A stretch of 51,035 bases of DNA from Bacteroidaceae bacterium (GTDB taxonomy: Bacteria; Bacteroidota; Bacteroidia; Bacteroidales; Bacteroidaceae): positions 1-51,035 of the forward strand of contig JAGBFX010000058.1 in assembly GCA_017936265.1 (NCBI GenBank), given 5' to 3'. Below, in pieces: positions 3,578 through 35,128 of the stretch. The position numbers were made by a program, and so were the translations under genes. The first letter of the stretch is position 1, and each line of letters opens with the position of its first letter. The notes under the pieces are model-generated. The model was not told the origin of the DNA. It ran no database searches and saw only the letters and a list, made by a program, of their open reading frames with translations.

Positions 3578-3620
3578 ATATAATAATGATGGCGGCCATT
3601 GGCCGCCATCATTATTATAT
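3578..3620. terminator. Perfect 21-bp inverted repeat between hydrolase and terminase genes
   Basis: Arms 3578-3598 and 3600-3620 are exact inverted copies around a single central base. The core is GGCGGCCA/TGGCCGCC with AT-rich outer arms that give U-rich tails in both directions, so it should terminate both converging operons. The terminase stop codon (3615-3617) lies inside the right arm. Confidence 0.85.
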
Positions 3621-5615
3621 GCTTGCCTCGCTTATTATGCGGTGGCGTCTGTTGCCAGTGTGGGCTGTCGGCTTTGTCGGCAGCGAGTGGTTGTAACAGG
3701 TCCATACAAGTATGGCTGTTGCCATGACGCGGTCATCGTGGTTGCCCTCAATGGCACCCATCTCCTTGCCGTTCTCCTTGAACTCATACAGATCGAGCTC
3801 GTATGTTGTCTGTAAACATCTTTCGATGTAAAGGCCATCGCGCAGCGCTTTGATAAGGAAGTTTATTACCATGGGCTTCGTTGAACTGTTGGTGTGGAAA
3901 CCCCAGCGCCTCGGCCGCCCCTGTTTTATCTCAAGTTGAGATGTGCGGCAGTAGAGATTGCTGTATCGGCCGGCAATTTCGTTAAGTATATACTCGAAAT
4001 TGTTCCCCTCGGTGCCTTCGGTCTCCAAAGTGTTCGACTCAATGACAAGCAAGGCATTGCCATAGGCGCGTGCAATTTCTACAGCTTTCCATGCGAGCTT
4101 GTCATGCTCTATGTGCCCATGCCAGCATGCGGCAATCTCCGGGACTCCTCCGTCGAGCATGGCAATCCTGTCGGCAACTACAATGCATGAATAGTCCGCC
4201 TTGTTGCCTGTGCCGCCTACATCTACTGTTACTATGTATCTGTCACGCAATATGTTATCCTTGTCGGGCATAAGCCATACACAGAGGCTGTTCTCCTCCT
4301 TTTCCCCTGCTGCCGCGGCAACAAATTCGCATTTGCCTTTTCCTCCGTTCTCTCCCTCTCTGTAGACAATGTCGCCGATGAACGGTGGCGGCACGCAGTT
4401 CTTGCGCATGCTGTTCACGTATGATATCTTGAATACCCTTCGCCCTGTGCTCTGGAACGCCTCTTCGGGTGTAGAGGGGAACTCGCTGAACAAGCGCCAT
4501 TCATCGGGCATCTCGCGTCGCTTGTCGCGGTACCATGCAATGGCCTCCAGTGTCGCTCCCAACGAGAAGAGGTGCTGTTCATACTCATTCATGCTCTCTA
4601 TTATTGAGCCGTAATCGGCTTGGTTGAGTGGCTTGCTGTAGAGGTCTATCGTAAACCATGGAATGAATACCGGTGTAAAATTATTTCGCAACTCTACGGC
4701 GTCAATCCATGTCCTGTGAAAGAAATTGCCGACACCTTTTGCTGTCGATTCAATTACCTTCATCGTGTATGGCCCGCTTGCAATTGAACCGAAAATTGAC
4801 TGCACCAGGTCCTCGGGCTTGCGTCCTTGTGTAGCTTTCCATAACCCGACCTCGGTAAGGTGAGCCATACTGATATCTTCGCTTCTCAATGAGTCGGGTT
4901 TCTGTGCCGAACCGAGCGAGTAACGGCTGTTGCTCCAGTTTATCACTCTTGTCTTCTGTGCGCCCTGATAGGGTGATGTGAGGAGGCGTCTGCCGCCTGT
5001 CGCCCATGTGGGGTAGCGCGTGATGACTTTGGCGAGCATTCCGGCCACAATGGATGACTGTTTCTCGATGTCACCGCAGATGACGCTGTTCCAGTTGCGT
5101 TTGTGTACCAGTTGAATCCATAGCATGTAGAGTTGTGTGAGTGTACTGCCTCCCCATTGGCGTGCTTTCAGCAGTATTATGTCGATAGGTTTCCCCTCTG
5201 TGCGAAGCTGCTCCATAGCCTTCAGGTATATGCGCTGCGGACGGTTGAGAGTGAATGCCGTATCGCGTCCCTTGCCCTTGTCGGCAATGGTTGTCATCGT
5301 GCGTGCCCAGTATTCGAAATCGTGGCGTATGCGCTTGAGGCAGAACTCGAGCCACAGCCTTATGATGTTACGGTCATTTGCCTCGGTATGCATGACGTCG
5401 GTAAGGTACCGTTCTGCACCCATCGATGAGAGTTGCTGTATCTGTTCATCGGATAGCATCGTTGCGGGCAGGTTTATTCTCTCGACAGGAAACCCTTCGA
5501 ATGTTGTCCACTGCCGCACGACGGATGTCGAGCCCTCTCCTGTGACAGGATTGTAAACGGCTGAGATTTCTCCCAGCCGTCGTATATTCTCCTTGATGAT
5601 ATCTTCTTTCTCCAT
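3615..5615 (-). CDS. Phage terminase large subunit (TerL)
   Basis: The ATPase-nuclease motor that packages DNA into proheads. At 666 residues it is full length. The ATPase domain has a Walker A-like segment KARQWGGST (150-158), in which the usual lysine before Ser/Thr is glycine, a Walker B/catalytic pair TE in MAHLTEVG (E255), and a coupling motif ESTAKG (289-294). The RNase H-like nuclease has acidic residues in TVDVGGTGNKADYS (D465), VIESNTLE (E526) and GNHDDRVMA (D627/D628). The frame is intact and all catalytic acids are present, which suggests selection. It is the last gene of a minus-strand operon with two small genes 11 and 33 bases apart. The matching portal is about 27.5 kb away, across the ATP synthase operon. 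Confidence 0.9.
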   Translation of the reverse strand: MEKEDIIKENIRRLGEISAVYNPVTGEGSTSVVRQWTTFEGFPVERINLPATMLSDEQIQQLSSMGAERYLTDVMHTEANDRNIIRLWLEFCLKRIRHDFEYWARTMTTIADKGKGRDTAFTLNRPQRIYLKAMEQLRTEGKPIDIILLKARQWGGSTLTQLYMLWIQLVHKRNWNSVICGDIEKQSSIVAGMLAKVITRYPTWATGGRRLLTSPYQGAQKTRVINWSNSRYSLGSAQKPDSLRSEDISMAHLTEVGLWKATQGRKPEDLVQSIFGSIASGPYTMKVIESTAKGVGNFFHRTWIDAVELRNNFTPVFIPWFTIDLYSKPLNQADYGSIIESMNEYEQHLFSLGATLEAIAWYRDKRREMPDEWRLFSEFPSTPEEAFQSTGRRVFKISYVNSMRKNCVPPPFIGDIVYREGENGGKGKCEFVAAAAGEKEENSLCVWLMPDKDNILRDRYIVTVDVGGTGNKADYSCIVVADRIAMLDGGVPEIAACWHGHIEHDKLAWKAVEIARAYGNALLVIESNTLETEGTEGNNFEYILNEIAGRYSNLYCRTSQLEIKQGRPRRWGFHTNSSTKPMVINFLIKALRDGLYIERCLQTTYELDLYEFKENGKEMGAIEGNHDDRVMATAILVWTCYNHSLPTKPTAHTGNRRHRIISEASI

Positions 5616-5626
5616 TGTTGTACTTC

Positions 5627-6103
5627 TTATATTCCTGCAAGGTCTGTTGGGCGGCGCCGTACCTTCCTGCTGTTATAGAATTTTGCGAACAGCTGCTGCA
5701 CGTTGCTGTAGAGTGCGTTCCTCAATGAAAGGTTGGCCTGTGCCATTTGTGGCTGGCGCAACAGCAGCCAATGCATGGTAATCTCGTTCACAAGATAGTC
5801 GGTTATCGCCTGACGCAGCATGGGCAGCAGATGGCTGCGGCTGCTACAGCTCTCCTCAAAGATGAATGATATATACTCATCTTCAATCTCGCATGAAATA
5901 TAAGGGAAACGAAGAGCAACAGCAGTAACCAGCCCGTTAGCAGCCTGTGCGGCAAACATAAGGAGCAGTTCTTTCTCATCCTTGCTGCTTTGTATGGTGT
6001 CGGCGTCGATATCCTTACGCTTGGCCGACTCTCCCATGTAATAGTTCCTTAAATCAATCTGCTGTTGCAGTTCGTTCCACCTTATCAGTATAGTGTTTTT
6101 CAT
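5627..6103 (-). CDS. Unknown phage-locus protein, paralogue of the gene upstream
   Basis: A 158-residue protein of unknown function, middle gene of the terminase operon. It is mostly helical in appearance with a central beta-like stretch (SCEIEDEYISFIFEE). It aligns by eye with the 168-residue protein encoded just upstream: both have a D-x2-x-L-x3-F start to a helix with an alanine-asparagine pair, then a beta segment, then a long helix, then HWLLL-x2-P / HWMLT-x2-P and an LS-x3-A-x4 helical end. This looks like an ancient duplication. A position before TerL would suit a small-terminase or prohead component, but no helix-turn-helix is evident, so no role is assigned. Confidence 0.7.
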   Translation of the reverse strand: MKNTILIRWNELQQQIDLRNYYMGESAKRKDIDADTIQSSKDEKELLLMFAAQAANGLVTAVALRFPYISCEIEDEYISFIFEESCSSRSHLLPMLRQAITDYLVNEITMHWLLLRQPQMAQANLSLRNALYSNVQQLFAKFYNSRKVRRRPTDLAGI

Positions 6104-6125: not shown

Positions 6126-6632
6126 TTATAGCTCTATAATGTTTTCATCTTCAGCGGTTCCCATTACAGGGCACGTGCGCAAAGAGAGCAGTTCACGGAT
6201 GCGTGCAATGTCGTTCTGCGCCTTTGACAGATGAATGTTCGCCTCATCGGGTTTCACCGTCAGCATCCAGTGCTGAAGGCTTCGTGCTGCCGCGAAGCTT
6301 GTAATGCTCTCCTTTAACGATGTAGCTAAACTGCCGGGGCAGTTGTGCGGCATGGCAAACCGTATGTATATCGTTCCTCCAGTGTTCTCTTCTGTCTGCA
6401 TGTATGTGGCTGAACATGGTGACATGTAACGGCTTATTATACCCGCAACTTCGTTTGCACTCTCAATGATGAATCTCTCAATCAGGTTGCGGTCATCCTC
6501 TGTTGCCTGGACTATGTCTGTAAAGTGCTCCGGTAAGCCGCTCTTTGCACGTGCAAGGGCTGCATAGGCGCTCTCCGAAAATATGCGGTCGGCAATGTCG
6601 CCCCCGTTGATAGTGATTATAACCTCTTTCAT
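6126..6632 (-). CDS. Unknown phage-locus protein, first gene of terminase operon
   Basis: A 168-residue protein of unknown function. It opens MKEVIITINGGD and shows the same order of helix, beta strand (GGTIYIRFAMP), helix and HWMLT-x2-P signature as the 158-residue gene that follows, so the two are paralogues. The start at 6632 is supported by a shared-box promoter whose -7 element TATCTTTGC ends 13 bases upstream, which implies a very short 5' leader. It could be the terminase small subunit or a virion protein; neither can be shown from motifs. Confidence 0.7.
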   Translation of the reverse strand: MKEVIITINGGDIADRIFSESAYAALARAKSGLPEHFTDIVQATEDDRNLIERFIIESANEVAGIISRYMSPCSATYMQTEENTGGTIYIRFAMPHNCPGSLATSLKESITSFAAARSLQHWMLTVKPDEANIHLSKAQNDIARIRELLSLRTCPVMGTAEDENIIEL

Positions 6633-6644
6633 TCTCTTTTTTCA

Positions 6645-6689
6645 GCAAAGATAGATGCATGATTATGCCATGAGGTTGCTGAATTGACA
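6645..6689 (-). promoter_or_regulatory. Shared-box promoter P1 (terminase operon)
   Basis: On the minus strand the box TGTCAATTCAGCAACCTC starts at 6689, and TTTG of the -7 element TATCTTTGC starts at 6649, exactly 40 bases downstream. The usual -33 TTTG is absent and the box covers that position. Three other copies with identical 40-base spacing occur at 7515, 26419 (minus) and 26443. Confidence 0.8.
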
Positions 6690-6844: not shown

Positions 6845-7285
6845 TTATGCCATTGCCCTGTGCGTATCGGCCTTGTTGCCGTTGCTGCGCAAGGCCCTGT
6901 AGACAATTCCTCTGAAAGTCTCCTCATCGATGTAGAAAGAAGGTGCCGGCTCCTCAATGATATCTTCAAGGATGAGGTATTTGTGGCGTGAGTCGCACTC
7001 CTGCGCCTGTTTGCGGTAGCGCCGGTATATCTCCTTGTACATCTCGACCTTGTTCTTGTTTGTGATAGGGAGCTCTTTCTTGCGCATAAGAAGCGATACG
7101 AAGCGCCTTGCATTTTCGAAAGTCACATAGAATCTCGGTGCACTGCTTTTTGATGCATGTTCGATTACTTCACTCTGTGAGACAAAAGGTCTTGTTTTTC
7201 TCAACTCTTTCAGTGAACCAAAAAAGCTGTTGACAACGTCCTGTCTGCGGATGTCGCGGACAGAATTCTTGATAGTGTTTTCCAT
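6845..7285 (-). CDS. Unknown conserved-looking protein in phage locus 1
   Basis: A 146-residue protein, no family recognised. It is basic in the N-terminal two thirds (SVRDIRRQDVVNSFFGSL, LMRKKELPITNKNK, YRRYRKQAQ) and acidic near the end (EDIIEEPAPSFYIDEETF). The ATG at 7285 (MENTIKNSV) is preferred: an upstream in-frame start at 7351 would precede the predicted -7 element at 7308-7317. A basic protein transcribed alone from a variant of the shared-box promoter could be a DNA-binding regulator or activator; that is inference from position and charge only. Confidence 0.7.
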   Translation of the reverse strand: MENTIKNSVRDIRRQDVVNSFFGSLKELRKTRPFVSQSEVIEHASKSSAPRFYVTFENARRFVSLLMRKKELPITNKNKVEMYKEIYRRYRKQAQECDSRHKYLILEDIIEEPAPSFYIDEETFRGIVYRALRSNGNKADTHRAMA

Positions 7286-7307
7286 AATGTTCCTGCTTTT
7301 ATGGCTA

Positions 7308-7350
7308 CAAAAATATAGCCAAAAAAAGCTGAAAGTTTGCTGTTTTAACA
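7308..7350 (-). promoter_or_regulatory. Degenerate shared-box promoter P5
   Basis: On the minus strand, TGTTAAAACAGCAAACTT starts at 7350 and matches the shared 18-bp box at about 13 positions. A consensus -7 element TATTTTTG follows with its TTTG starting at 7311, 39 bases from the box start. The gene it would serve begins at 7285. Confidence 0.5.
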
Positions 7351-7514
7351 TTAAATTATCAACAACACCTTTTATTCCTGTTTCTTTTCCTTATTTCTTG
7401 TCGTGAATGATGCATGCCACGCATGATAGGGTGTCGTTTCGCGTGCATATAGCGCGTACCTTCAAGACGTTATTGTGGCAATTACGCCGGTTCACTCTGT
7501 TTCTTCTCTCTAAA

Positions 7515-7559
7515 TGTCATTTCAGCAACCTTGTCGGGCAAATTCGGTTGTTCCTTTGC
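7515..7559 (+). promoter_or_regulatory. Shared-box promoter P2 (capsid operon)
   Basis: The box TGTCATTTCAGCAACCTT starts at 7515 and TTTGC at 7555 (element TTCCTTTGC), 40 bases apart. The 18 bases are identical to the copy at 26443 in the second locus. The first capsid-operon ATG is at 7580, so the leader would be short. The rest of the gap 7286-7579 contains P5 and small palindromes such as CATGC-CAC-GCATG near 7414. Confidence 0.8.
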
Positions 7560-7579: not shown

Positions 7580-8365
7580 ATGGAACAGAATTTAATGAAC
7601 TTGAAAAATGAGGCTGCACCTTATGAAGGTGCGCCCGTGAATGAAGGGATGCCTGTTGCCGGTCAGCAGGATGTGGCTGAATCTCCTTACGCTTATCTGA
7701 GCATGGGGCTGAAGAAAATCTTCGGGGATGACTTCTCCATTGATGACCGCATGTCGCAGGATATGCTTTTGCACTATCTCTTCCAGACTAAAAAGCAGAA
7801 CGAACTTCTTACCGAGGTCCTCGACAGTGACCCGCGTCTTGCCCAGATGCTGCTTGACATGATTAACGGAAAGAGAAATGCAAGCAGCGCGGTGGCGCGT
7901 TACTTCGGACGCTCATTGGTTGAGCTCGATGAGGACTCCCCAGAGTATCAGGATATGCTGCGTGCCGATGAGGAACTGCAGCTTGAGAATGCCCGTATGT
8001 CGAATGACCGCGAGGAGTATGAGGCTAATCTACGCGAAAGCCAGCCTGTCATTGAGGCTTTCTGCCGCGAACGCGGGTATGAGCCGTCGGAATTCATGGA
8101 CAATGTGTGGGAGAGAATCATCTTTCCGATAATGGCTGGAAAGTACACAGGTGATGTTTGCACTGCGCTTGACCATGCGCTTACCTATGAGAAAGACGTG
8201 GAGGATGCTTTTGCCGCAGGTGACATCAAGGGACGCAACACCAATATCATGCGCATGAAGGAGGAGTTCGGCGATGGTCTGCCAAAGGGCATGGCGAGCG
8301 TGGCTCCTGTAGCTGCACCTAAACGCAGACGCAACTCTCTCATCGACAAGGCGTTGAACGCATAA
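7580..8365 (+). CDS. Probable capsid scaffolding protein
   Basis: A 261-residue, strongly acidic, helical protein directly upstream of the major capsid candidate. It has a Pro/Gly-rich N-terminus, acidic helices in the middle (ELDEDSPEYQDMLRADEELQLE) and a short basic tail (PKRRRNSLIDKALNA). An acidic coiled body with a basic C-terminal helix, encoded just before the capsid gene, is the usual design of tailed-phage scaffolding proteins, whose tail binds the capsid protein during prohead assembly. No protease motif is seen. The assignment rests on composition and order, not on a family match. It is the first gene after promoter P2. Confidence 0.65.
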   Translation: MEQNLMNLKNEAAPYEGAPVNEGMPVAGQQDVAESPYAYLSMGLKKIFGDDFSIDDRMSQDMLLHYLFQTKKQNELLTEVLDSDPRLAQMLLDMINGKRNASSAVARYFGRSLVELDEDSPEYQDMLRADEELQLENARMSNDREEYEANLRESQPVIEAFCRERGYEPSEFMDNVWERIIFPIMAGKYTGDVCTALDHALTYEKDVEDAFAAGDIKGRNTNIMRMKEEFGDGLPKGMASVAPVAAPKRRRNSLIDKALNA

Positions 8366-8403: not shown

Positions 8404-10023
8404 ATGAGAAAAATCATTTCTTTTATGAGGGAGAACCCTCTGTTCGTGATTGTTTCGCTGGCAGCTCTGGCGTTCTATTTCTTCTGTGACCAGGTTGCAG
8501 GTATGATGCTTGCTGCTGTCAATGTGGTACCGGGCGGCACTCCTAAGGCTTCCAAGGGTATCGGCGGTCTTGCCACACAGGGAGCAGGCGAGGCTACGAC
8601 CGTATCCAATGCACGTGAGCTCGGCAGTGATTTGATTGATGCCGATGTCGATGACCAGATAATTGGAATCGCAAGCGATGAGAGCATCATCGATACCATC
8701 AAACGCAAGATACGCCGTCAGGTGCGTGTAAGCTCTTTCGAGGTCGACCATTATCTCATTGATGACAAGCGCTCGAAGGCCTATACCAATGAGACCTACA
8801 CCGGCATCAGTGCTACACGTGCCGAGATTCCTTTCTCTACAACGGGAGAAAGAAAAATCTTCCAGGAGTATTACACTGCAATCTGTAAGGGTGTAAACGG
8901 TTATGACGCCTCGGGGCAGGTTGAGCTGCCGGGCGTTGACCTCATGCTCTTCTTCGTTGGCAAGAACAGTACTACCGAGGCTCCTATCGCAATGGCAGTC
9001 AATGGTCCGAAGGTTAACTCCAGCGATGACTATTGCGTGGTGCCTACAATCCCCGCAGGTACCGAGATTATCCTTCTCTCTTCGGCCGCATACGAGACAC
9101 AGAAGTTCATCGCACCCTCTACAATTGTGCCTGTGCCCGAGCGTATGTACCTGCAGAAGCAGCTCTGCAACAGCATCGTGAGCGACTATTTCGCGGCACA
9201 GAAGAAACGTATACCGTTCAGTGAGTCGCAGATTGCCGAGGCTGTGCTTCGCCAGTTCCGTCTCGAGAGTTGCCGCACGGCGTGGGTCGGTCAGCCTGGC
9301 AAGTTCAAGGTTCAGACTATGGACAACGCTATGGGATATCAGTGGGATTACTTCTCAAAGGGTATCCGTTGGCAGTTCAAACGTCAGTATGACCTCTCAT
9401 CGAAGATTACTTTTGCTGACTTGATTAACCTCTCGATGGTGAAGTTCACCGGGTTCAATTGCACCAAGAGGGCTATCTGGCTGTTGGGTAAGAACCTGCT
9501 TAATGATATCCAGAAGATTGATCTTACCCTGCACAAGAACATCAGCATGACCGGCGATAAGGTCTTCGGCATCGAGTGTACGAAGATTCACACTGTCTTC
9601 GGAGATATCGACCTCATTCACGACCCGACTCTCGATGCTCTCGGCTATGCTCATTGCGGCGGTCTCATTGACGAGAACGGCCTTGTGCGTTACTACATGA
9701 AGAACGAGGACGCAAAGACCGAGAATGTAGACGGCGAGGAGGCAAAGCGCGAGGTTGTCATGACAATCGACTGTCTCTGTCTCAAGGGCTACTCGCACAT
9801 CTGGGTAAACGGTTCGGCAGCCGAGAGTGACATCCCTGGTGCTTCGCATGTGACAAGCGCTGCTGTATTGCCTGCATCACCTGGCATCAACGACGTGGTA
9901 GTGCTTACAGCCGATGTCAATCACACTGTCAACGGCGAGCAGAAACTCTGGTTTGCTGCGGGCAGCGTGGTTACATTCAACGGCAGTACATGGGTTGAAT
10001 ATACAGGCGAGATTCTTATCTGA
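8404..10023 (+). CDS. Major capsid protein candidate with N-terminal hydrophobic helix
   Basis: A 539-residue protein following the scaffold-like gene and preceding head-tail genes, which is the expected place and size of a major capsid protein. No sequence signature proves the HK97 fold. Features include regular beta-rich segments, several YF/RW aromatic clusters (MGYQWDYFSKGIRWQFKRQYD) and a C-terminal small beta domain (VVVLTADVNHTVNGEQ to end) that could be a surface domain. Unusually, residues 13-28 (LFVIVSLAALAFYFF and following) form a membrane-type helix after a basic start, MRKIISFMRENP. A later in-frame start at residues 34-35 would remove it, but the ATG at 8404 has the more typical A/T-rich leader. 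Confidence 0.7.
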   Translation: MRKIISFMRENPLFVIVSLAALAFYFFCDQVAGMMLAAVNVVPGGTPKASKGIGGLATQGAGEATTVSNARELGSDLIDADVDDQIIGIASDESIIDTIKRKIRRQVRVSSFEVDHYLIDDKRSKAYTNETYTGISATRAEIPFSTTGERKIFQEYYTAICKGVNGYDASGQVELPGVDLMLFFVGKNSTTEAPIAMAVNGPKVNSSDDYCVVPTIPAGTEIILLSSAAYETQKFIAPSTIVPVPERMYLQKQLCNSIVSDYFAAQKKRIPFSESQIAEAVLRQFRLESCRTAWVGQPGKFKVQTMDNAMGYQWDYFSKGIRWQFKRQYDLSSKITFADLINLSMVKFTGFNCTKRAIWLLGKNLLNDIQKIDLTLHKNISMTGDKVFGIECTKIHTVFGDIDLIHDPTLDALGYAHCGGLIDENGLVRYYMKNEDAKTENVDGEEAKREVVMTIDCLCLKGYSHIWVNGSAAESDIPGASHVTSAAVLPASPGINDVVVLTADVNHTVNGEQKLWFAAGSVVTFNGSTWVEYTGEILI

Positions 10024-10141: not shown

Positions 10142-10570
10142 ATGAAAAAAAGAATTACTTACGAGATACATGGACAGATAGAGCGTAACAGTTACTTCAG
10201 GATAGGGAAGGCGCTCATGAGAATAGAATTCACAGGCGGTGCGATAAACTCCACAGGGGTATATCCTGCGCAGTATACGACCGACAACCCTCTTTTCCAG
10301 CGTGCTATCGAGAACAGCGAGGCTTTCCGCAACGGCGAGATAAAGCGCGGTAGGGTAGATATAATAGGTGACAGTGAGCCTGAAGTCAAAGATAAGAACG
10401 GTGGCGGCAATGATGCCGTATCTGTCGTGAGTGAGGTTACCAATATGCAACAGGCGCGCGCCTGTCTTATGGCTGCACCCTATAACTGCGCCCTTTCTGA
10501 ACTGCAGAACAAGAATGCTGTAAAGAGCATGGCTCAGAGCAAGGGCGTCTCTTTCCCTAACTGGCTATGA
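10142..10570 (+). CDS. Small virion-locus protein with SAP/LEM-like C-terminus
   Basis: A 142-residue protein, not firmly recognised. The N-terminal two thirds is basic and beta-rich (KKRITYEIHGQIERNSYFRIG). After a Gly-rich linker (NGGGND), the end (MQQARACLMAAPYNCALSEL then NKNAVKSMAQSKGVSFPNWL) resembles the short HeH/LEM/SAP helix pair found in phage head-associated proteins. The stop overlaps the next start (ATGA at 10567), so translation is coupled to the adaptor gene. A head decoration or head-completion role is possible. Confidence 0.65.
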   Translation: MKKRITYEIHGQIERNSYFRIGKALMRIEFTGGAINSTGVYPAQYTTDNPLFQRAIENSEAFRNGEIKRGRVDIIGDSEPEVKDKNGGGNDAVSVVSEVTNMQQARACLMAAPYNCALSELQNKNAVKSMAQSKGVSFPNWL

Positions 10571-11226
10571 TTTCGACCGATGAACTTGTCAAGCGGGTAA
10601 GGCGTCTGCTGAATGAGGCCGAGGAGGATGCCCGTCTCTCGTTGCTTTACGAAGAGACTCGCTCAATAAACGGACACATCCTGAGGCTGCTGCCACAGGC
10701 TGTCGCTCTGGTGCAGAAGAACAAGGCTCCTGATTGCGGGAACGTCAACCCTCGTGCTCTTGATGTGGGTACAGCTGAAATTGTGGAGCGCGATGACGGA
10801 AAGGCGATGATTGTATTGCCTGATGACTTTGCCGCTCTTGTATCGCTGCAGCTGAAGGGGTGGAAACGTCCATGCCGTCAGCTGCTTGTCGAGGGATGTT
10901 GCGAGTCAATAGCTCAGAACAGTGGTTATGTGCGTGCCGGGGTATGCCGTCCGCTGTGTGTGGAGAGTGTAGCCGATGATGGCTCAAGGGTGGTGCTCCT
11001 CTCTCCGCTTCCCGGCGGCAAGGCTCCGCAGCTTGACCATTTTGTATATGAGGCCACGTTCGATACGGCTCATGGCCTGGAGGGGTGCAACTCTCTCCTC
11101 GCAGATGCCGTGGCATATTACTGTGCCGCGCTCTTGTACAGTGTCTTTGAACGTCGTGAGCAGGCAAATGCCTTGCTCTCGCTTGCCACGTTGTTGTGTA
11201 ATGGAAAAAATGTTGAAAGGAGATGA
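10567..11226 (+). CDS. Probable head-tail adaptor (gp4/gp11-like)
   Basis: A 219-residue protein. Its helical N-terminus (STDELVKRVRRLLNEAEED), LPDDFAALVSLQL strand and late helical pair (LLADAVAYYCAALLYSVFERREQANALL) resemble tailed-phage adaptor proteins that bind under the portal (P22 gp4, T7 gp11 types). Position between the capsid gene and the nozzle-like gene agrees. No diagnostic motif is available, so the call is by architecture and context. It overlaps the previous gene by 4 bases; the next start is 5 bases downstream. Confidence 0.6.
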   Translation: MISTDELVKRVRRLLNEAEEDARLSLLYEETRSINGHILRLLPQAVALVQKNKAPDCGNVNPRALDVGTAEIVERDDGKAMIVLPDDFAALVSLQLKGWKRPCRQLLVEGCCESIAQNSGYVRAGVCRPLCVESVADDGSRVVLLSPLPGGKAPQLDHFVYEATFDTAHGLEGCNSLLADAVAYYCAALLYSVFERREQANALLSLATLLCNGKNVERR

Positions 11227-11230
11227 CATT

Positions 11231-11512: not shown

Positions 11513-11516
11513 TACT

Positions 11517-26358: not shown

Positions 26359-26374
26359 ATCATCATCTTTATCG

Positions 26375-27034: not shown

Positions 27035-27051
27035 CCCTAAGAGTGTGGCAT

Positions 27052-27492
27052 ATGGAGAATTTTGTGGATTATGATGACCTTATCGAGCGTATCAATAAGG
27101 CAAAGGATGCCGAGGAGAAACGCTTCAAGGAGGCAAAGAGGCAGCGTAATATTGCCGCAATAGTCGATTTTACAACGAACCTTCTCTCTCTGGCAGGCTA
27201 CAATAAGGGGGCGCGGTATTTGGCGGGAACATCACTCCTTGGCAAGCAGCAGCCACTTTATCTGCAGTCGAAGCAGAACTACCGCAAGGCTATGAATGAT
27301 TATAACGGCAGGATAGCCGAGATTGGCTTGCTTAAGAAAATTAAGGAGAACAAGTGCAGTACAGGTACGCGTCCAATCGGTTTCATCGGCAATGGTTCAA
27401 ACCGGAGCACAAGGCCGCTTTCCAACGGTATGTTCGAGAATGCCCTTAAAGATTACAGGAACAACTACAACAGAAAAAACTATAGACTATGA
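27052..27492 (+). CDS. Second small internal virion-type protein
   Basis: A 146-residue basic protein with coiled-coil-like start (DDLIERINKAKDAEEKRFKEAK), a central apolar stretch (AAIVDFTTNLLSLAGYNKGA) and a Gly/Ser/Asn-rich end (RPIGFIGNGSNRSTRPL). The ATG at 27052 is chosen over a GTG at 27043. The stop overlaps the start of the 1887-residue gene (ATGA). Its role is inferred from context: a likely partner of the large ejection protein. Confidence 0.55.
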   Translation: MENFVDYDDLIERINKAKDAEEKRFKEAKRQRNIAAIVDFTTNLLSLAGYNKGARYLAGTSLLGKQQPLYLQSKQNYRKAMNDYNGRIAEIGLLKKIKENKCSTGTRPIGFIGNGSNRSTRPLSNGMFENALKDYRNNYNRKNYRL

Positions 27493-30400
27493 ATTTGAAC
27501 AACAGAACAGACAGCGGGGAACTTCCCTATGGGACTTCATTGTATACTCCTGACAATGATGAGAAACAGAATTATCATGTGCAGAATGCTTTTGATGAGG
27601 AGAAACCGCAAAAACAAGGTGTCGGCTACCATGTAGGAACGGCAGGTGATGTCCAAGGTGTATACACCGGTTCCGCTCCGAAGCTGTCAGAAATAGATTA
27701 TGCCGACATCTCTGGTGGAAGGAGAATCCTCAGGAACATGTTCCCGAATGCAGGAAAACCGAACCAAGGTTTCACGGGTGTGGGTGCAGGCGTTATGGCT
27801 CCTGTGCCCATTCAAGAACCAGAGTCTCAGAATCAGTACAAGGACGTACTCGACAGGGCTCTTGGAGGCTCATTCGGCGAGAATTTGAAGCAGCGTTTTG
27901 CAGCTCGGCGTCAGGAGTCGAAGAAACGGAGTGAGAAAGCCTACAGGGACGCGGTCTCTGTCATGGGCGGTAACCCTGTGTTCGCATCCTACAGAGCCAT
28001 GGAGTCCGATGATGCCGTAAAGGATATCGAGGAAACCATTGCCGAGACAGATGTTGCAGAGCTTGCCAGGCGTGTAGCACCATTGGCGAAGTATAACGGG
28101 TACGGAGTGGATGAGTATCTCAAGGAACGTGTATTGCCCAAGATGTATGACACGCTTCTCGATGAGGTATTAGAGGATGAGAAACCCAAGAGCAGTGCCG
28201 AGTATATCCTCAGGTCATCACTGACAAACTCCCTTGTCGGTAAAGTGGCTCAGTTTGCAAGAGACAAAATGCTTGGCAACAGCAACCAGACAATGTTGCA
28301 GAGCGAGGGCCTTGGCCGTTACAATGCCAACCGTCTTGAGCAGTTTGCCGGAAATGTGGGCTCGTTGCTTGTCGATGCCCCGGTATTTTCACTCCTGGGC
28401 GGTGGTTCGGGTATTGCCATGGGTAAGGTGGCAAACAAGGTTACCTCCAAGCTCGCGGGTAGGATTCTTACACGTAAATTCGGCGAGGGGATGACACGAG
28501 AGGCTGCAAAGAACATGGCCGAAAGGGTGGTGACCAAGCGCTTGGGCTTCAAGATGCTGCAGAGCGCGGGTACACAGGGGCTGACACTGGGTAACTACGA
28601 TGCTTTGAACAGCATTGTAGATGACATGCTCTATCAGAATGATATCGACGCAGGCAAGGCTGCCGGCTCATTTGCCAAAGGTACTCTTACCGGTGCAGCA
28701 CTAGGTGTTGTGGGTACACCGTTGCGCGAGGCATCCAAAGGGCTGACCGGCGCGAAGAAACTGCTCGCCTCATCGGGTGTCCTCTCGGCAGAGTCGGCAG
28801 TCTTCACTGCCGGTACCGAGCTTGAAAAACTGAAGAACGATGTCGAGATTGCACCAATAGACCTTGTCAAGGATTTCGGCGAAAGCGCGGCGACACTACT
28901 TGTCATGAGGATGACACACTGGCGTCCCAAAGGCGCGTCGCTGAAACTTGGAGCCAATGGCAAGCTTAAGGAGAAGTTCGCGCTTTCAAGTTCCGAGCGG
29001 GCCGAACTCAAGGAACTTAATGTAAACCCAGAGCAGTTCATCGATGCCATCGAGAAAGAGCTCAAGCTCCCCTCATTCGGTGGCGAAAGGTCGCGTTATA
29101 TAAAGGATACCTACAGCAGTATCATGTCCAACGAAGCGCTGTCAGCTTCGGCAAGGGCCAAGCTGTTGTTCCTTGTCGAGAACAAGGTTACATCTACACC
29201 GCCTGTCCCATTCGACTTTACCGTGAGGCAAAGAGAGGACAGCAAGTGGGAGATAACGACTGTCGATGAGGTCGGAAGGACCGTGTCGCGCAACATCTTC
29301 GACCACGCAGGTAATGCCAAGAGCTATCTCATGGTCAAGGCAGCCGATTTCCGTCGTAACAGGATTGCTCTCTTCGAGATGGAACTGACCGATGGTCTGC
29401 GCTCGGCCAATTTCATCCGTCAGGCAGGTCTCTATGCCAAGAGCAGCGGAATGGACATAGAGGAGATATCAACTGCCGTGTACAAGAAAAGTGCGGGCCA
29501 TGAGATGAGTGCCGAAGAGAAGAAGATTGTCGATGATATTCTCGTGCGCTCAGCCTACGATGAGGCGGGTATGGTACAGATGCTTTATAACGTGCGCCGC
29601 AAAATTGAGAAACGTCATGGCCTTGAGAAAGGCACCATGCTCATCGATATCCATAAGCCGTTCTTTCACTTGACCAAGGCCCAGAACAACTCCCTCGATG
29701 AGTATGAGGCATTGTTGCGTGATGAGGTCGACCGTCTGAAGGGCGGTACCGACAAGCGCCGTTCGGTACGACTGCTCAAGCAGGGACTCGACAGCGACTA
29801 TTTCGGCATGTCCAACGATGAGGTCAAGGCCGATGAGATACAGAAGTACTATGATTGGGTGGCTGTGCGCGATGCCGACCGCGTCGGTCTGCACTCGGAG
29901 CCCTATGCCCCGGCTCCTCCACGTCCCATATATATACCGCCCGAAGACAATTCCGGCTATGTCTGGAGCTACGGTGAGGCAAAGAACACCCGCGAGGATA
30001 TTGAACGCTACAAGGAACGTGCCGAGGCGGTTGCCGCCAAGTTCGGTGTAAAGCCGCATTTTATCTTCGATGAGCGTGAGATTGAGCGTCCCGACCCTGA
30101 AGACTATGATGCTGTGGCGCGCTACAATGCGCAGGTCGTTTCAAGCGGCTGGGTAAATGTGGGCAGGGTGTTCATAAATCTTCCCAACGCCAAGAACATA
30201 GAGGATGTGGAAAGGACAGTGCTTCATGAAGTCGTGGGTCATAAGGGCTTGATGCATGTCTTTGGCGAGCATCTTAATGATTTCCTCGAGGATGTATACA
30301 GGAAGGCATCTCCCGAGGTCCTGCGCGGTATCAACAGGATAAAGTACCAGTACCGGGGCTTCGATAACTACACAGTGATGGAGGAGTATCTTGCCTATCT

Positions 30401-33152
30401 TGCCGAAGGTACTGGCCTTACAAGACAGGAGCGTTCGCTTTATGTAAGGATAAAGGACTATATAAGGAGCCTGCTCATAAGAATGAACATCTACACAGGA
30501 AGCAACCGTCAGATAAGTGAATCGGAACTGAGGGATATCATGCAGCGCCATTGTGAGTATCTGCAGACAAAGGAGTCTCCTGATGACTACAGGAAAGATG
30601 TGTTCGGCAGCTTCAATGCATCCTACCGCGACGCAAAGACCTACTATGACAATGCCCTGTACAGGAACGAACTGAAATCTCAGATAGATAAAGGAGAATT
30701 CCTTGTTTCAACGCCCAAGTTCTTCAGGAACGCAAAAGAACTTGCCCACTACGACCTCTTGCCGCCCGAGCAGCAGAAGAGAGTGCGTGAACGTAACGGC
30801 ATTGTAGAAGAGCCTGCGCAGAACCCTGTCGAGGAAAACATGTACAGGCGAGGGGAAAAAACAACCTCCGGCGAGAGGAGCGGTGTGATTCCAGGCAACT
30901 CATCATCCGGAGATCTACTTCAAGTAAGCAACGGACACCTAAGCCATTATGCGCTAACTTCCCAAGAAGATGTTGCAAATATAGCGAAAAATACCGATAA
31001 TTCCTACTTCTCTGCAAGAAGAAAAATTAATGAAGGAGGTTTTTATGATATCCCATACTACGATGATGGTAAATTGCATTATCGTTTGCCCGATGAAGAA
31101 AAAACAACCTCCGGCGAGAGGAGCGGTGTGATCCCAGGCAACTCATCATCCGGAGGTCTACTTCAAGGAAGCAGCGGACACCTAAGCCGTTATTCACTTG
31201 CTACACATGAAGATGTTGCAAAATTAATAAGCAATAATGAAATAACAAAGTCTTCGGTAAGAAAAAAATTAAATCAAGGTGGATTCGTGGATTTGAAAAC
31301 GATTGAAGATGCAGTTAGGAAAATTGGTGAAAGTTTAAAACTTGTGAAATCAAAGAGTTCTCAGTCTTATTACGGAGATTTATACGAAGGCGACTTTATG
31401 GTAGATGGGAAGAGCCTCCATTTGCGTATTTCCACTCATCCTGCAACATGGGATAGAATGGGTAACTATCCAGCCGATGACAAGATAAGCATTGTTGTCT
31501 ACAAGAACGGAGAGCATGTAAACAGAGGAGAGCATAATGGTTACATAGAGTATATATACGACCCGGTAAAAGTGTCTTTGAACGATGCTGCAAATTCTAT
31601 ACTCAATGGTGTTGTGAATCTGATTGAAAATGGAACGTTTGTTGATTATACAGGGAAAGCGGAAAAGAATCAATACCCATACTACAATGATGGTAAATTG
31701 CATTATCGTTTGCCCGATGAAGAAAAAACAACCTCCGGCGAGAGGAACGGTGCGGTTCCAGGCAGCCCATCATCCGGAGGTCTAATTTTGGGAGGCAGCG
31801 CGCACCTAAGCCGTTATCCACTTGCACAACCAAAACATGTTACAAATATACAACGCGAAGTGCCCGGCTCCAAATATAATGTGTTAAAACATTTCGATGA
31901 GAATGGCGAACCGTTTCCTGAATATTATCCAAGTAGCGATACGAAGTACCGTCTGCCCGATGACTTAACAGGGAAAGAAACTCGCTATCGTCTGCCCGAT
32001 GACATTTACAAGGGAAGTGGTGAGGAAGAGCGCCGCAGCCTGGAGCGCGATGCGCTTGAGCGTGGTACGGCCCATGACCCCGAAGCGAGAATACCATTGC
32101 TCGAAGACCCGTTCTACAGGTCGTTGAGAGCCAACTCCCCCACATATGCCTATGCCTATGAACATCTGCGTGGGCTGCCGTCCGAGAATTGGAAAGCCTA
32201 TGACCATGACTTGTGGAACACGCTTGTGGGAATGGCCGAGAGCGGCGTGGGACGGTTCGTGCTGAAGGATATTGTAACCGACAAGGATTTCCTTATGGAG
32301 CATCCCGAACTGGCGATGATGCCGGTTGATATTGAAAAAGACCTGTCCATACCAGTGATGTACGACAGGAAGAACAACAGAATACTCCTCGACAGGAGAG
32401 TCTATCTCTATCCTCAGTCAAGATTCTACATCGATGGTGCGCTGAGGAGTGTGGCGCGTGATTTTGAAGAACGGCGCAACTCGGTCAAACGTCAGCTGAA
32501 CGAATTCAATTCAAGCTTCAGGAAAAGTTACAACGATGCAGTTGCCTATGCCCGTAACCTTGCCAAAGTGCGCGAAGAGATTCCCGGTTTTGATGCTGAC
32601 AACAGAATTGCCGAGACATACCGCAACGAGTTTGGTTTCATGCCCGATGAGTTCCTGAGACGCTTCCCCAATATGGATGACTATCTGCTTTATAGGGTTG
32701 CCCGTAGCATGGGGCATTTCATAGGCGGACGTTATAATCCTGAGTACAGGAAGGAGGTTGATGAGGAAATTGACAGTAAAATCAAGAAGTATCGCAGATT
32801 CTTATGGGGACCGGTGGAGATAATCATTGATGCTGCTGGCGGTGGCGAGGCCGAGGGTCCGTTGCGCGTGGCGACAATGAAGGACTATGAGGAACGTGTG
32901 GCTCCGAAGAGCGCTCTTGACAAGGCCGATGAGAAAGCCTATTTCAGGTATGAGTTCCCGAAATTGCTTCACGACATCAGCCTGTTTGACCCGGCTATCC
33001 GACGTGACCCCACCGGGTGGGAAAAGTATAAACGCATCAGGGATGCCAAACTGAAGGCCGAAAAAGAGAAACTCGGTATAAAGGTTCCGAAGACCAAAGA
33101 GGAAAAGAAACGCGAGCTTGAACTTGAAAAGAAAAGGCTCAAGATGAACTAA
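27489..33152 (+). CDS. Giant ejection-type virion protein with zincin domain and repeated cassettes
   Basis: 1887 residues. The N-terminal 130 residues are polar. Residues about 270-480 contain Gly/Ala-rich apolar stretches (APVFSLLGGGSGIAMGKVA, AGSFAKGTLTGAALGVVG), suited to membrane interaction. At about 905-925 lies VLHEVVGHKGLMHVFG; His913 and Glu914 head an HExxGH zincin motif typical of polyvalent phage proteins, with a possible third ligand in MEEYLAYLAEG. Residues about 1120-1470 hold three copies of a linker (EKTTSGERSGVIPGNSSSGG type) that separate variable cassettes, and several YRLPDD/E repeats follow. The C-terminus is basic (KEEKKRELELEKKRLKMN). By size and position it is a T7 gp16-like ejection protein; this is inference. 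The frame is intact. Confidence 0.7.
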   Translation: MNLNNRTDSGELPYGTSLYTPDNDEKQNYHVQNAFDEEKPQKQGVGYHVGTAGDVQGVYTGSAPKLSEIDYADISGGRRILRNMFPNAGKPNQGFTGVGAGVMAPVPIQEPESQNQYKDVLDRALGGSFGENLKQRFAARRQESKKRSEKAYRDAVSVMGGNPVFASYRAMESDDAVKDIEETIAETDVAELARRVAPLAKYNGYGVDEYLKERVLPKMYDTLLDEVLEDEKPKSSAEYILRSSLTNSLVGKVAQFARDKMLGNSNQTMLQSEGLGRYNANRLEQFAGNVGSLLVDAPVFSLLGGGSGIAMGKVANKVTSKLAGRILTRKFGEGMTREAAKNMAERVVTKRLGFKMLQSAGTQGLTLGNYDALNSIVDDMLYQNDIDAGKAAGSFAKGTLTGAALGVVGTPLREASKGLTGAKKLLASSGVLSAESAVFTAGTELEKLKNDVEIAPIDLVKDFGESAATLLVMRMTHWRPKGASLKLGANGKLKEKFALSSSERAELKELNVNPEQFIDAIEKELKLPSFGGERSRYIKDTYSSIMSNEALSASARAKLLFLVENKVTSTPPVPFDFTVRQREDSKWEITTVDEVGRTVSRNIFDHAGNAKSYLMVKAADFRRNRIALFEMELTDGLRSANFIRQAGLYAKSSGMDIEEISTAVYKKSAGHEMSAEEKKIVDDILVRSAYDEAGMVQMLYNVRRKIEKRHGLEKGTMLIDIHKPFFHLTKAQNNSLDEYEALLRDEVDRLKGGTDKRRSVRLLKQGLDSDYFGMSNDEVKADEIQKYYDWVAVRDADRVGLHSEPYAPAPPRPIYIPPEDNSGYVWSYGEAKNTREDIERYKERAEAVAAKFGVKPHFIFDEREIERPDPEDYDAVARYNAQVVSSGWVNVGRVFINLPNAKNIEDVERTVLHEVVGHKGLMHVFGEHLNDFLEDVYRKASPEVLRGINRIKYQYRGFDNYTVMEEYLAYLAEGTGLTRQERSLYVRIKDYIRSLLIRMNIYTGSNRQISESELRDIMQRHCEYLQTKESPDDYRKDVFGSFNASYRDAKTYYDNALYRNELKSQIDKGEFLVSTPKFFRNAKELAHYDLLPPEQQKRVRERNGIVEEPAQNPVEENMYRRGEKTTSGERSGVIPGNSSSGDLLQVSNGHLSHYALTSQEDVANIAKNTDNSYFSARRKINEGGFYDIPYYDDGKLHYRLPDEEKTTSGERSGVIPGNSSSGGLLQGSSGHLSRYSLATHEDVAKLISNNEITKSSVRKKLNQGGFVDLKTIEDAVRKIGESLKLVKSKSSQSYYGDLYEGDFMVDGKSLHLRISTHPATWDRMGNYPADDKISIVVYKNGEHVNRGEHNGYIEYIYDPVKVSLNDAANSILNGVVNLIENGTFVDYTGKAEKNQYPYYNDGKLHYRLPDEEKTTSGERNGAVPGSPSSGGLILGGSAHLSRYPLAQPKHVTNIQREVPGSKYNVLKHFDENGEPFPEYYPSSDTKYRLPDDLTGKETRYRLPDDIYKGSGEEERRSLERDALERGTAHDPEARIPLLEDPFYRSLRANSPTYAYAYEHLRGLPSENWKAYDHDLWNTLVGMAESGVGRFVLKDIVTDKDFLMEHPELAMMPVDIEKDLSIPVMYDRKNNRILLDRRVYLYPQSRFYIDGALRSVARDFEERRNSVKRQLNEFNSSFRKSYNDAVAYARNLAKVREEIPGFDADNRIAETYRNEFGFMPDEFLRRFPNMDDYLLYRVARSMGHFIGGRYNPEYRKEVDEEIDSKIKKYRRFLWGPVEIIIDAAGGGEAEGPLRVATMKDYEERVAPKSALDKADEKAYFRYEFPKLLHDISLFDPAIRRDPTGWEKYKRIRDAKLKAEKEKLGIKVPKTKEEKKRELELEKKRLKMN
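30853..31822 (+). repeat. Three direct repeats flanking variable cassettes within the giant gene
   Basis: Nearly identical DNA segments of about 95 bp begin near 30855, 31096 and 31720 (encoding EKTTSGER-GVIPGNSSSGG and then HLSRY). Copies 2 and 3 are extended upstream by a shared stretch encoding DDGKLHYRLPDE/NDGKLHYRLPDE. Between them are a short cassette (about 30950-31055) and a longer AT-richer one (about 31193-31680). The pattern would allow exchange or loss of cassettes by homologous recombination. Confidence 0.85.
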
Positions 33153-33169
33153 CTAAATAAAATGTTACA

Positions 33170-35128
33170 ATGAACAAATTCTTAGATAAGAGGGTAAAGG
33201 CAAATAAGAAAAGTCGCAGAGACTCTCCCGACAGCACCACTGCCGCTGCGGTGGAGTTCCTGGCAGAGTGCGCTGCTTGCTGGAATGCTCTTGATGAGGC
33301 ACGGCGCAAACTGCGCCGTAGCCTCATGTACAGCTACGGCGACCAGTGGGGCGATTATGTTACAGACCCCGATACCCTTGCACAGATAACCGAGGGCGAA
33401 CTCATAAAGAAGAACGGTAAGGTTCCGCTCAAGAACAATATGATTGCACCTATTCTTGGAAACATCGACGGTCAGCTGCGTCAGAACCTCATGCGCCCAG
33501 TATGCGTGGCCCGCGACCAGAGCGAGAGCAAGTTGGGCGAGATGATGTCTGTTGCCATAGAGTATGTGCATGACATCAATGAGATGGAGGAACTCGATGC
33601 AGACTGCATGCGCATGCTGCTCAACGGCGGTATGACAGCGCAGAGGATTGAGTATGGCATCAACCCCTCCAAGGAGCGTCGCGATGTGTGGGTCTATTCT
33701 GTCAATCCGTCACGTCTTTTCTTCAATACCAACATCGAGGATGTGCGCATGTGGGACCTTACCTGCATTGGAGAACTGTTCGACTTGCCTCTTGAGGACC
33801 TCCTTGCCCACTTTGGTACAACCCCGCAGAAGAAGCAGCGCATAAAGGACATATACGGCAATGTGTCTCAGTCGGTCTTTGCCGGTAGCAGGGCCATGCA
33901 GGGCGAGGAGTCAAAGAACATGTCGTTCTATTCGCCCTCACACACCAATCTCTGCCGTGTAATCCTCGGTTGGAAACTCGAGTCGCGTGACTCCTATCGC
34001 TGGAATGACAGCAGTAACGGAACATGGGGTTATCTGCCCTATGATGATGAGAGCAAGGCGATGCTCGATGCCGAGAACCGCCGTCGCATTGATGAGGGTG
34101 CCGCGAAAGGAATGGAGGAAGATGAACTGCTGCTTGTGGAGTATGAGTTTGCCACCGAACGATACTGGTACTACCGATACATGACACCCTATGGCGATGT
34201 GCTCCAGGAGGGGCGCAGCCCCTATTGGCATGGCGAGCACAATTATGTGTTGCATCTCTTCCCGTTGATACAAGGACGTCTCGGTAACTTCGTGGAGCAG
34301 TTCATTGACCAGCAACGTGCCATAAACCGCACTGCAACGCTCATCGACTTCATTCGAGGCACCTCATCCAAAGGTGTGCTTGTCGTTGATGATGAGGCTT
34401 TCGAGAGCATGTCGCGCGAAGAGGTCATCGATGAGTATGTACGTTACAACGGTGTGCTCTTTGTCAAGCTCAAGCCGGGCCAGAGCATCGACGGGGTAGT
34501 GCGCCAGTACAACAGCGGTGCTGCCGTTGCCGGTGACTTTGAACTGCTCAACCTGCAGCTGAGGCTCATCAATGAAATCTCGGGCGTCAATTCAGCCATG
34601 CAGGGGCAGGCGCCAAAGGCGGGAACACCCGCCTCGCTCTATGCGCAGCAGATACAGAACTCATCGCTCAACCTCAAAGGGCTGTTCGACGGCTTCAGGA
34701 ACTTCCGTCGCCGCAGGGACGGCAAGGTAATGAAGACCATACAGCAGTTCTACGGCGAGAGACATTACATTGACATTGTGGGTACACATTACAGCGAAGA
34801 GGCCAAGTGGTACAACCCCGACAAGGTACAGAACAGCGAGTTCGACCTGACAATATCCGACGGTTACAACACTCCTGCCTATCAGCTTCTCGCAAATGAG
34901 TTCCTTATGGAACTTTTCCGCAGCAATGCCATTGATGTCAAGACAATGCTCGAAAACAGTTCCTATCCCTTCGCCACCAAGATTCTTGAGGCTATCAAGC
35001 GCAACGAGGAGCAGGCCTCGCAGGGGCAGGCAATGGAAGGCATTCCGCCCGAACTGCTTGCGCAACTTCAGCAGAAGGATATGCCGCAAGTCGAGGAGTT
35101 ACCCCAAACCCCGGAACAATCCATTTAG
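33170..35128 (+). CDS. Portal protein (P22-like)
   Basis: A 652-residue portal: the dodecameric ring at the capsid vertex that TerL docks on. It starts with a basic segment, then a helical wing (ARRKLRRSLMYSYGDQWGDY), PLKNNMIAPILGNIDGQLRQN, VWVYSVNPSRLFFNTN, and a helical crown-like end (EAIKRNEEQASQGQAMEG, then Gln/Pro-rich). The order and length fit the P22-like portal family. It is the last gene of locus 2 and lies 17 bases after the giant gene. Its physical distance from terL (about 27.5 kb) is abnormal, because portal and terminase genes are normally adjacent. Confidence 0.85.
   Translation: MNKFLDKRVKANKKSRRDSPDSTTAAAVEFLAECAACWNALDEARRKLRRSLMYSYGDQWGDYVTDPDTLAQITEGELIKKNGKVPLKNNMIAPILGNIDGQLRQNLMRPVCVARDQSESKLGEMMSVAIEYVHDINEMEELDADCMRMLLNGGMTAQRIEYGINPSKERRDVWVYSVNPSRLFFNTNIEDVRMWDLTCIGELFDLPLEDLLAHFGTTPQKKQRIKDIYGNVSQSVFAGSRAMQGEESKNMSFYSPSHTNLCRVILGWKLESRDSYRWNDSSNGTWGYLPYDDESKAMLDAENRRRIDEGAAKGMEEDELLLVEYEFATERYWYYRYMTPYGDVLQEGRSPYWHGEHNYVLHLFPLIQGRLGNFVEQFIDQQRAINRTATLIDFIRGTSSKGVLVVDDEAFESMSREEVIDEYVRYNGVLFVKLKPGQSIDGVVRQYNSGAAVAGDFELLNLQLRLINEISGVNSAMQGQAPKAGTPASLYAQQIQNSSLNLKGLFDGFRNFRRRRDGKVMKTIQQFYGERHYIDIVGTHYSEEAKWYNPDKVQNSEFDLTISDGYNTPAYQLLANEFLMELFRSNAIDVKTMLENSSYPFATKILEAIKRNEEQASQGQAMEGIPPELLAQLQQKDMPQVEELPQTPEQSI

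Follow-up and report, generated by a model that had tools for sequence, protein, structure and literature searches.

A 51,035-nucleotide (nt) contig of a Bacteroidaceae bacterium (GenBank assembly GCA_017936265.1, JAGBFX010000058.1, positions 1 to 51,035; hereafter the window, which is contig C20 of a 2.40-Mb genome in 62 contigs) carries two phage-type gene modules, at 3.6-15.2 kb and 26.1-35.1 kb, on either side of an ATP synthase operon. We consider it likely that these modules descend from a podovirus-type prophage that was domesticated in a genus of the Bacteroidaceae and now works as a gene transfer agent (GTA). Only slightly less confidently, we regard the system as an independently evolved GTA of the Bacteroidota that is fixed in this genus, with a scattered regulon whose promoter box drifts together with an unseen activator, and which takes in remote endolysins, fibres and possibly delivered proteins. 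Judged from its genes, it is a strong GTA candidate of independent origin, because it has those features of the International Committee on Taxonomy of Viruses (ICTV) definition of GTA viriforms that a sequence can test, namely phage-derived virion proteins, several endogenised loci and co-diversification with the host. That definition, in the part of PMC9662315 that sets out viriform criteria, also includes packaging of random host DNA, an element too big for the head and delivery of DNA to cells.

Module 1 comprises, on the minus strand, terL, encoding the large terminase subunit (3615-5615), g5627, g6126 and g6845 and, on the plus strand, a scaffold candidate, the capsid gene, an adaptor, a holin, a spanin candidate and a 950-amino-acid (aa) virion protein. 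Module 2 consists of a 79-aa minus-strand gene, two candidates for small internal proteins, an 1887-aa ejection-protein candidate and the portal gene (33170-35128, plus strand); the stretch between the modules holds a minus-strand gene at 15440-15823, an S24-type repressor gene, two genes of low GC content and the ATP synthase operon. Named-family matches indicate firm identities for TerL (phrog_2, 1.3e-20) and the portal protein (Pfam P22_portal, 1.6e-36; PHROG portal, 1.9e-58; the solved portal 8jov, 1.7e-7), a fair one for the holin (11502-11984, plus; Pfam Phage_holin_4_1, 5e-5, above the cut-off) and weak ones for the capsid and adaptor proteins; the similarity of portal, TerL and holin to phage families points to proteins derived from the Caudoviricetes. 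The Walker A, Walker B, coupling and third nuclease motifs of TerL are identical in all 30 aligned genus copies, which also keep the acidic residues of the other two nuclease motifs, and T4 gp17 was its sole PDB match (E 0.028). The major capsid protein (8404-10023, plus) is SU10/DUF5309-like by a weak family match (Pfam SU10_MCP, 0.016, under the cut-off; one phage homologue is annotated DUF5309), and a profile search of PDB with it gave no match; the head-tail adaptor candidate (10567-11226, plus) weakly matches Pfam SU10_adaptor (0.0049). Spanin, scaffold, ‘nozzle’ and ejection proteins are candidates without named-family support whose roles were assigned from position. The scaffold candidate (7580-8365, plus) precedes the capsid gene here as in phage relatives and matches a function-less family (phrog_22323, 1.1e-14), as does the tail nozzle or virion protein candidate (12338-15190, plus; phage family phrog_32516, 1.4e-46). 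Family-library scans gave no significant named family for the unimolecular spanin candidate (11956-12345, plus; 27 genus copies), in which a lipobox and a C-terminal membrane segment were recognised by eye, and none for the ejection proteins at 26501-33152, where only part of the 1887-aa protein (27489-33152, plus) matches the function-less phage family phrog_14770 (2.2e-14). A preliminary description of this DNA had proposed two complementary virion modules flanking an ATP synthase operon, which the PHROG, Pfam and PDB matches bear out. Of the gene roles it gave, those of terL, portal and holin stand, and those of capsid and adaptor do so weakly, with scaffold, spanin, nozzle and ejection roles resting on position or eye; its gene list had missed two conserved minus-strand genes, 15440-15823 and 26122-26358.

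The system is spread throughout the genus, at least one of its genes being found in 44 of 44 genus genomes. Matches to terL and to the capsid gene each occur in 43 of the 44, but the G016 copies of both are phage-type only (40-45%), so GTA-type terL and capsid are each present in 42. The two genomes without GTA-type terL or capsid (G006 and G016) carry a GTA-type portal, and the three that missed the portal among the 37 searched for it (34 positive; misses G012, G015 and G027) possess terL and capsid; therefore some part of the system is present in all 44. Both terL and capsid were found in all 11 of the most complete genus genomes, and rpoB, as a comparison, was recovered in 32 of the 44. Among 188 family genomes outside the genus there were ten terL matches, nine at 36-43% and one partial at 29%. 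A capsid scan of contigs from 84,980 species, which detects close relatives only, returned 43 loci, whose records are titled either ‘Bacteroidaceae bacterium’ or ‘Bacteroidales bacterium’; 38 of these titles name samples of ruminant rectum, colon or cecum.

Inheritance of the virion genes mostly follows that of the host. A concatenated terL-capsid-portal tree (43 taxa, 32 from the genus and 11 phage-like) places the genus copies in one clade with a support of 100 that excludes the 11 phage-like sets. The virion tree has 12 of 23 splits in common with a host tree built from rpoB alone (26 genomes), with 14 strongly conflicting split pairs; when G010 is dropped, 17 of 22 splits are common and all 14 strong conflicts vanish, and trees with shuffled labels share at most 3. 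Distances also correlate with those of rpoB for capsid (0.80), terL (0.48) and portal (0.54), each above all 999 permutations, and for g6126, the S24 repressor gene and host ligA, available for few taxa, the correlation was not above all 999. Ratios of non-synonymous to synonymous substitution (dN/dS) in close pairs, with cells of saturated dS left out, are 0.012-0.036 for capsid, 0.03-0.08 for terL and 0.02-0.08 for portal, which places these three among the most constrained genes of the system; the spanin candidate reaches 0.30 and host genes range from 0 to 0.14. The preliminary description had named dN/dS of terL, portal and capsid as a check, and the overall range of 0.012-0.08 indicates purifying selection. 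Judging from these comparisons, the virion genes are mostly intact and under strong purifying selection, and their inheritance is mostly vertical, co-diversifying with the host, with the exception of G010, where a mixed bin or a genuine transfer may be at work.

The two modules are further tied together by their promoters. Those of the capsid operon (7515-7559, plus strand, 0 mismatches) and the portal operon (26443-26487, plus strand, 0 mismatches) share the box TGTCATTWCAGCAACCTT-N22-TTTGC, and a third copy with 2 mismatches precedes the g6126-g5627-terL operon (6645-6689, minus strand); these are the three sites within 3 mismatches in the window, all before operons of the system, compared with 0 in 100 shuffles. 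A looser form of the box occurs at the capsid operon in 26 of 27 genus regions and at the portal operon in 23 of 27. When a profile of the box was run over 58 genus regions (1.23 Mb), 87 hits scored above the best of 20 shuffles, and all 87 precede genes of the system: g7580 (30), g26501 (25), g6126 (15), g26119 (11), g6845 (4), g15440 (1) and one labelled ‘big’, which is the g26501 promoter in G001. No hit preceded a host gene in the 58 regions, and there was none in eight phage-like regions. Because the profile was built from the capsid- and portal-operon boxes (with a shuffle threshold from one strand), hits at those operons arise partly by construction, but those at g6126, g26119, g6845 and g15440 do not. 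The consensus of this box, and of the operator described below, was chosen after viewing regions that were later counted, the controls being shuffles, the reversed pattern, other promoters and other genomes. Across 21 genomes the boxes of the two modules are more alike within a genome than between genomes (2.52 versus 4.25 mismatches in 17; 0 of 10,000 shuffles), as expected if a single regulator drifts with its sites.

The same box lies before genes far from the modules. Allowing up to 3 mismatches, we found 53 sites in 11 of 12 genus genomes and none with the reversed pattern; 31 of them are in the modules and 22 elsewhere, including four remote sites in the genome of the window. A scan of 201 family genomes gave 39 sites within the genus, spread over 11 of its 13 genomes in the set (control 1), and 13 sites in 12 of the 188 others (control 2). 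At 17 of the 22 remote sites, one of them doubtful, a frame of at least 60 aa starts 10-28 nt downstream. Genes behind remote boxes encode two GH108 endolysins (G035, G025), two DUF5675 proteins, four DUF6973 proteins and one DUF4417/nuclease-family protein. Five of six DUF5675 or DUF6973 proteins share a leader resembling MSNFFNNGQRMPNIFERARAY (loci L237, L240, L243, L253 and L255), diverged in G007 (L255), which could mark cargo proteins for packaging or targeting. A pair of fibre-like proteins of 93 and 81 aa follows a remote box in six genomes, and a protein search found the 93-aa member in 9 of the 44 genus genomes; ‘fibre-like’ is a label given by eye, since these remote proteins of 81-110 aa matched nothing significant in Pfam. 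Three of seven further sites inspected (G024, G014, G031) have a near frame, and the eight remote-site surroundings listed consist mainly of genes that look host-like by eye. Modules and remote genes apparently form one co-regulated regulon, as far as promoter sequences can tell. Genus-wide presence, a host-following tree, purifying selection, the shared box and its remote genes together uphold the earlier proposal of one dispersed, domesticated particle system.

A second element suggests how the regulon may be controlled. The S24/CI-type repressor gene (16112-16777, plus; Pfam Peptidase_S24, 2.3e-12; phrog_4, 2.1e-22) encodes an Ala-Gly site and a Ser-Lys dyad that we recognised by eye in all 20 aligned copies, and diverges from g15440 (15440-15823, minus), a conserved 127-aa gene in 21 regions including the window. 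The palindrome TAGCCANNNNTGGCTA, with at most 2 of 12 mismatches, occurs in 19 of 27 g6845/capsid regions (A), 19 of 21 S24/g15440 regions (B) and 0 of 27 portal-operon regions (C), with shuffle means of 0.15, 0.08 and 0.02, respectively. Where a g6845 promoter has a box hit, as it does in four genomes (G010, G014, G031, G036), the palindrome falls inside the box spacer. g6845 (6848-7285, minus; a longer frame spans 6845-7351) encodes an all-helical 146-aa protein of a function-less family (phrog_27246, 4e-13; AlphaFold pLDDT 88) and is the candidate activator. The simplest model would be a repressor acting over an activator, which in turn acts over the box promoters; we infer S24 as the protein that binds the palindrome, g6845 as the activator and DNA damage as the trigger. 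In a resting cell, the S24 repressor would sit on the operator at its own gene and at g6845; upon DNA damage it would cleave itself and g6845 would be made, activating the box promoters and hence terL, capsid, portal and the remote endolysin and fibre-like genes. A headful terminase would then pack host DNA into capsids, holin, endolysin and spanin would lyse the producer, and the particles would inject their DNA into kin. Carriage of pieces of host DNA between cells is the probable outcome, and packaging of the complete element is unlikely given its dispersal over the chromosome.

The ATP synthase operon between the modules (18974-26039, plus) is a passenger outside the system. Three of its subunits were compared with solved structures, and AtpD, AtpA and AtpB match F-type beta, alpha and a, respectively, identifying it as a genuine F-type operon by sequence. 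The order module-atp-module stands on a single contig in G000, G004, G014, G003, G022 and G035, and also in G029, where terL is missing at a contig end. A strong F-type AtpD match is present in 31 of the 44 genus genomes; the other 13 have a paralogue of about 28% identity or nothing, with the caveat that incomplete assemblies may hide a copy. That paralogue, found in 12 of the 13, is probably of the V/A type. In G030 and G019, which have no F-type AtpD, the two halves are contiguous, and other relatives carry different inserts within the element, by eye a transporter and two-component set in G003 and, in G024, a set resembling type III restriction-modification; in part of the genus, then, the ATP synthase genes ride inside the element as a passenger. 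The set in G024 occupies about 8.4-16.1 kb of locus L052 (G024:C18), between g6845 and the capsid operon. Comparing synteny around atp, as the preliminary description had suggested, thus confirmed that the order recurs in relatives, but ATP synthase does not define the system, as G030 and G019 show.

The outer flanks of the element are shared as well. Downstream of the portal gene lie what we take to be ligA and dapA, a DUF2400 gene recognised by family search, and presumably maeB. Among the 26 genomes whose sequence continues for at least 3.5 kb past the portal gene, 17 have ligA beside it, and murB-mbl adjoins terL in 7 of the 19 with at least 3.4 kb beyond (G000, G004, G030, G034, G253, G024, G017), seven genomes that span the tree. 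These shared flanks argue for one ancestral element between mbl and ligA, which probably once lay between murB-mbl and ligA-dapA with portal and terL as its outer ends. No empty site was recovered in the sister genomes checked: the distance between murB-mbl and ligA is about 3 kb in G065 and about 29 kb in G187, and in the remainder it exceeds 100 kb or the genes are on different contigs. Host flanks, the modules of G002, which are more than 100 kb apart, and the remote box genes together indicate, by sequence, an element endogenised in full and at several loci. The system would have arisen from a podovirus-type prophage, probably located between murB-mbl and ligA-dapA, that was domesticated in the ancestor of this genus, which record titles place in the ruminant hindgut.

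Bacteroides phages BS-TP4, BKO1-TP3 and BF1-TP2 have homologous portal (35-36%) and capsid (22-26%) proteins; in the GenBank record of BS-TP4 the gene matching the large terminase of the window system is annotated ‘tail spike protein’ (L205:20340-22436). Closer relatives are IMG/VR contigs (59-61% identity in terL; 59-64% for terL or capsid) and a resident prophage of G009 (G009:C6, 72% in capsid). Prophages of the same phage family reside in genomes with GTA-type genes at L046-L047 (G009:C6) and L045 (G016:C128). The G009:C6 prophage encodes a 4176-aa polyvalent protein, an antirepressor and a fibre, of which antirepressor and fibre were not seen in the modules; the corresponding giant protein has 5391 aa in BS-TP4, compared with 1107-1887 aa in the 30 uncut genus counterparts. 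Unlike in the genus system, seven IMG/VR phage contigs have portal and terL side by side and convergent, separated by 52-113 bp. The two genes also lie close together in G016:C128, G123, G138, G140 and BS-TP4; in G064 the capsid gene intervenes. The element is thus likely, but not certainly, a phage gene order opened between portal and terL.

Several observations weigh against the interpretation as a GTA or against parts of it. The evidence consists of genome sequences, metagenome-assembled ones among them. The conflict between virion and rpoB trees caused by G010 is strong, and the virion tree lacks two rpoB splits of good support (99 and 95), where only weak splits stand against them. Confidence in the GTA interpretation is very slightly lowered because the nearest relatives in the tree, L108/L283 and G009:C6, have the ‘nozzle’ gene between portal and terL, which does not fit a simple opening at that place. 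Neither G080 nor G017 has a box within 3 mismatches, 5 of the 22 remote sites have a frame farther off or none, and one box, at G014:C84, lies 102 nt before a long frame resembling host trigger factor. In the window itself the operator is weak: region B has a copy with 2 mismatches, and region A has none within that limit. Only its promoter layout marks g6845 as the candidate activator, fold searches with its predicted structure giving no match, and no small terminase was identified on examination of g26119 and g6845. Finally, a tyrosine integrase gene directly adjoins the portal in G019 (L038:3765-4961; PF13102, PF00589).

Among other explanations, the one that survives best is a virion domesticated for another use, such as protein delivery or killing of competitors. 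We rate it as unlikely: the leader-bearing DUF5675 and DUF6973 proteins behind remote boxes could be its cargo, whereas the packaging motifs kept in 30 of 30 TerL copies and the tight constraint on terL, capsid and portal point to DNA packaging. An ordinary temperate phage lineage that lysogenises nearly every species of the genus is improbable and largely refuted. It would account for fairly close phages, such as the IMG/VR contigs and the G009:C6 prophage, and for the G019 integrase just outside the portal end, but no integrase or replication gene was recognised by family-library scans among the window genes, several of which have no family match at all, or among the further frames listed for the compact G030 cluster. 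The shared host flanks, the host-following tree, the separated modules of G002 and the box-driven remote genes also speak against such a lineage. Missing integration and replication genes would suit a decaying prophage remnant, as would a stop in terL of G018, a portal in two pieces in G011 and a ‘nozzle’ in two pieces in G029, but near-constant lengths (capsid 535-543 aa across 32 genus copies) and dN/dS far below 1 make this very improbable. We give as little credence to a satellite, or another element dependent on a helper, that brings its own capsid. The lack of a recognised replication gene and the same-family prophages of G009 and G016 could be cited for it, but the system has its own terL, portal and capsid, is mostly inherited vertically and has all 43 of its loci from the capsid scan, which detects close relatives only, in Bacteroidaceae or Bacteroidales records. 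Misassembly of the window, an alternative raised in the preliminary description and conceivable for a genome in 62 contigs, can be dismissed for practical purposes because six other genomes (G004, G014, G003, G022, G035, G029) have contigs with the same module-atp-module arrangement.

As a GTA, the system would differ from those described. For the Caulobacter crescentus CcGTA, the sections of PMC11150451 on its control report that the repressor RogA acts on an activator gene and that GafYZ, besides its own expression, drives the main cluster and about 18 remote promoters. The layout here is similar: the operator marks the repressor gene and g6845, and the box precedes operons of both modules as well as remote genes; unlike CcGTA, the system belongs to another phylum and has a P22-type portal, an SU10-like capsid and an S24-type repressor, the likeness of g6845 to GafYZ being one of promoter layout. 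RcGTA of Rhodobacter capsulatus (Rhodogtaviriformidae) has virion genes in several chromosomal loci and is inherited vertically, according to the pertinent part of PMC9662315, and, according to that of PMC6363796, a direct activator that regulates itself positively and has the lysis promoter among its targets. The present system resembles it by description and differs in its Bacteroidaceae host and podovirus-like gene set. From the human gut, the relevant passages of PMC12946183 describe GTA-like packaging in Ruminococcaceae and Oscillospiraceae, including a Faecalibacterium candidate (FpGTA I, Ruminococcaceae) in one 10.5-kb operon, and for Bacteroides they speak of lateral transduction rather than a GTA. 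FpGTA I is likewise a gut GTA candidate, but the loci here are dispersed and the host is one of the Bacteroidaceae. No GTA of the Bacteroidota was found in print among open-licence PubMed Central texts. How many GTAs exist outside a few studied lineages is described as an open question, since GTAs resemble defective prophages (PMC11841831, in the passage on this point). If our interpretation is true, GTAs would gain a new phylum and a podovirus-type particle, and ruminant gut bacteria would be seen to have such a route for exchanging genes; it would also suggest a way of finding others through genus-wide virion genes that track the host tree and a promoter box common to distant loci, the box turning membership of scattered genes in a GTA into a direct search.

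The remaining genes of the modules are mostly small and conserved. The first gene of the box-driven terL operon, g6126 (6126-6632, minus), encodes a 168-aa protein matching phrog_19255 (2.7e-8), and g5627 (5627-6103, minus) a conserved 158-aa protein with 30 genus copies of 157-158 aa, whose sole match in phage-like regions is a weak one (29%) in the G009:C6 prophage. Between capsid and adaptor lies a conserved head-region protein of 142 aa (10142-10570, plus; 32 genus and 7 phage-like copies), and before the holin a small conserved gene of about 93 aa (11231-11512, plus). The latter is the conserved portion of frame 10976-11512, which was rejected as a whole gene as it overlaps the adaptor gene and only its end is widely conserved. 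Module 2 begins with g26119 (26122-26358, minus), a conserved 79-aa protein that occurs at 28 loci, the window among them, and is predicted as a helical hairpin (pLDDT 71); 24 aligned copies share 59-92% identity with that of the window, and no relative was found in IMG/VR. Its weak candidacy as the small terminase gains nothing from a PDB search in which a phage small terminase came only eleventh (E 6.8). Frames 15615-15980 and 26104-26403 were likewise discarded, being antisense to the conserved genes at 15440-15823 and 26122-26358. The internal virion protein candidates are encoded at 26501-27034 (plus; 28 genus copies) and, in a variable form, at 27043-27492 (plus; 18 genus copies).

Two further features of the window stand out by base composition. 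Between the S24 gene and atpD, at 16789-18551, are two genes of about 40% GC with signal-peptide-like starts, each found in five genus genomes. Positions 46703-50014 encode an 1103-aa PLD-like and SNF2/helicase protein at about 37% GC, compared with about 50% in most of the window, and this looks like a recently acquired defence gene.

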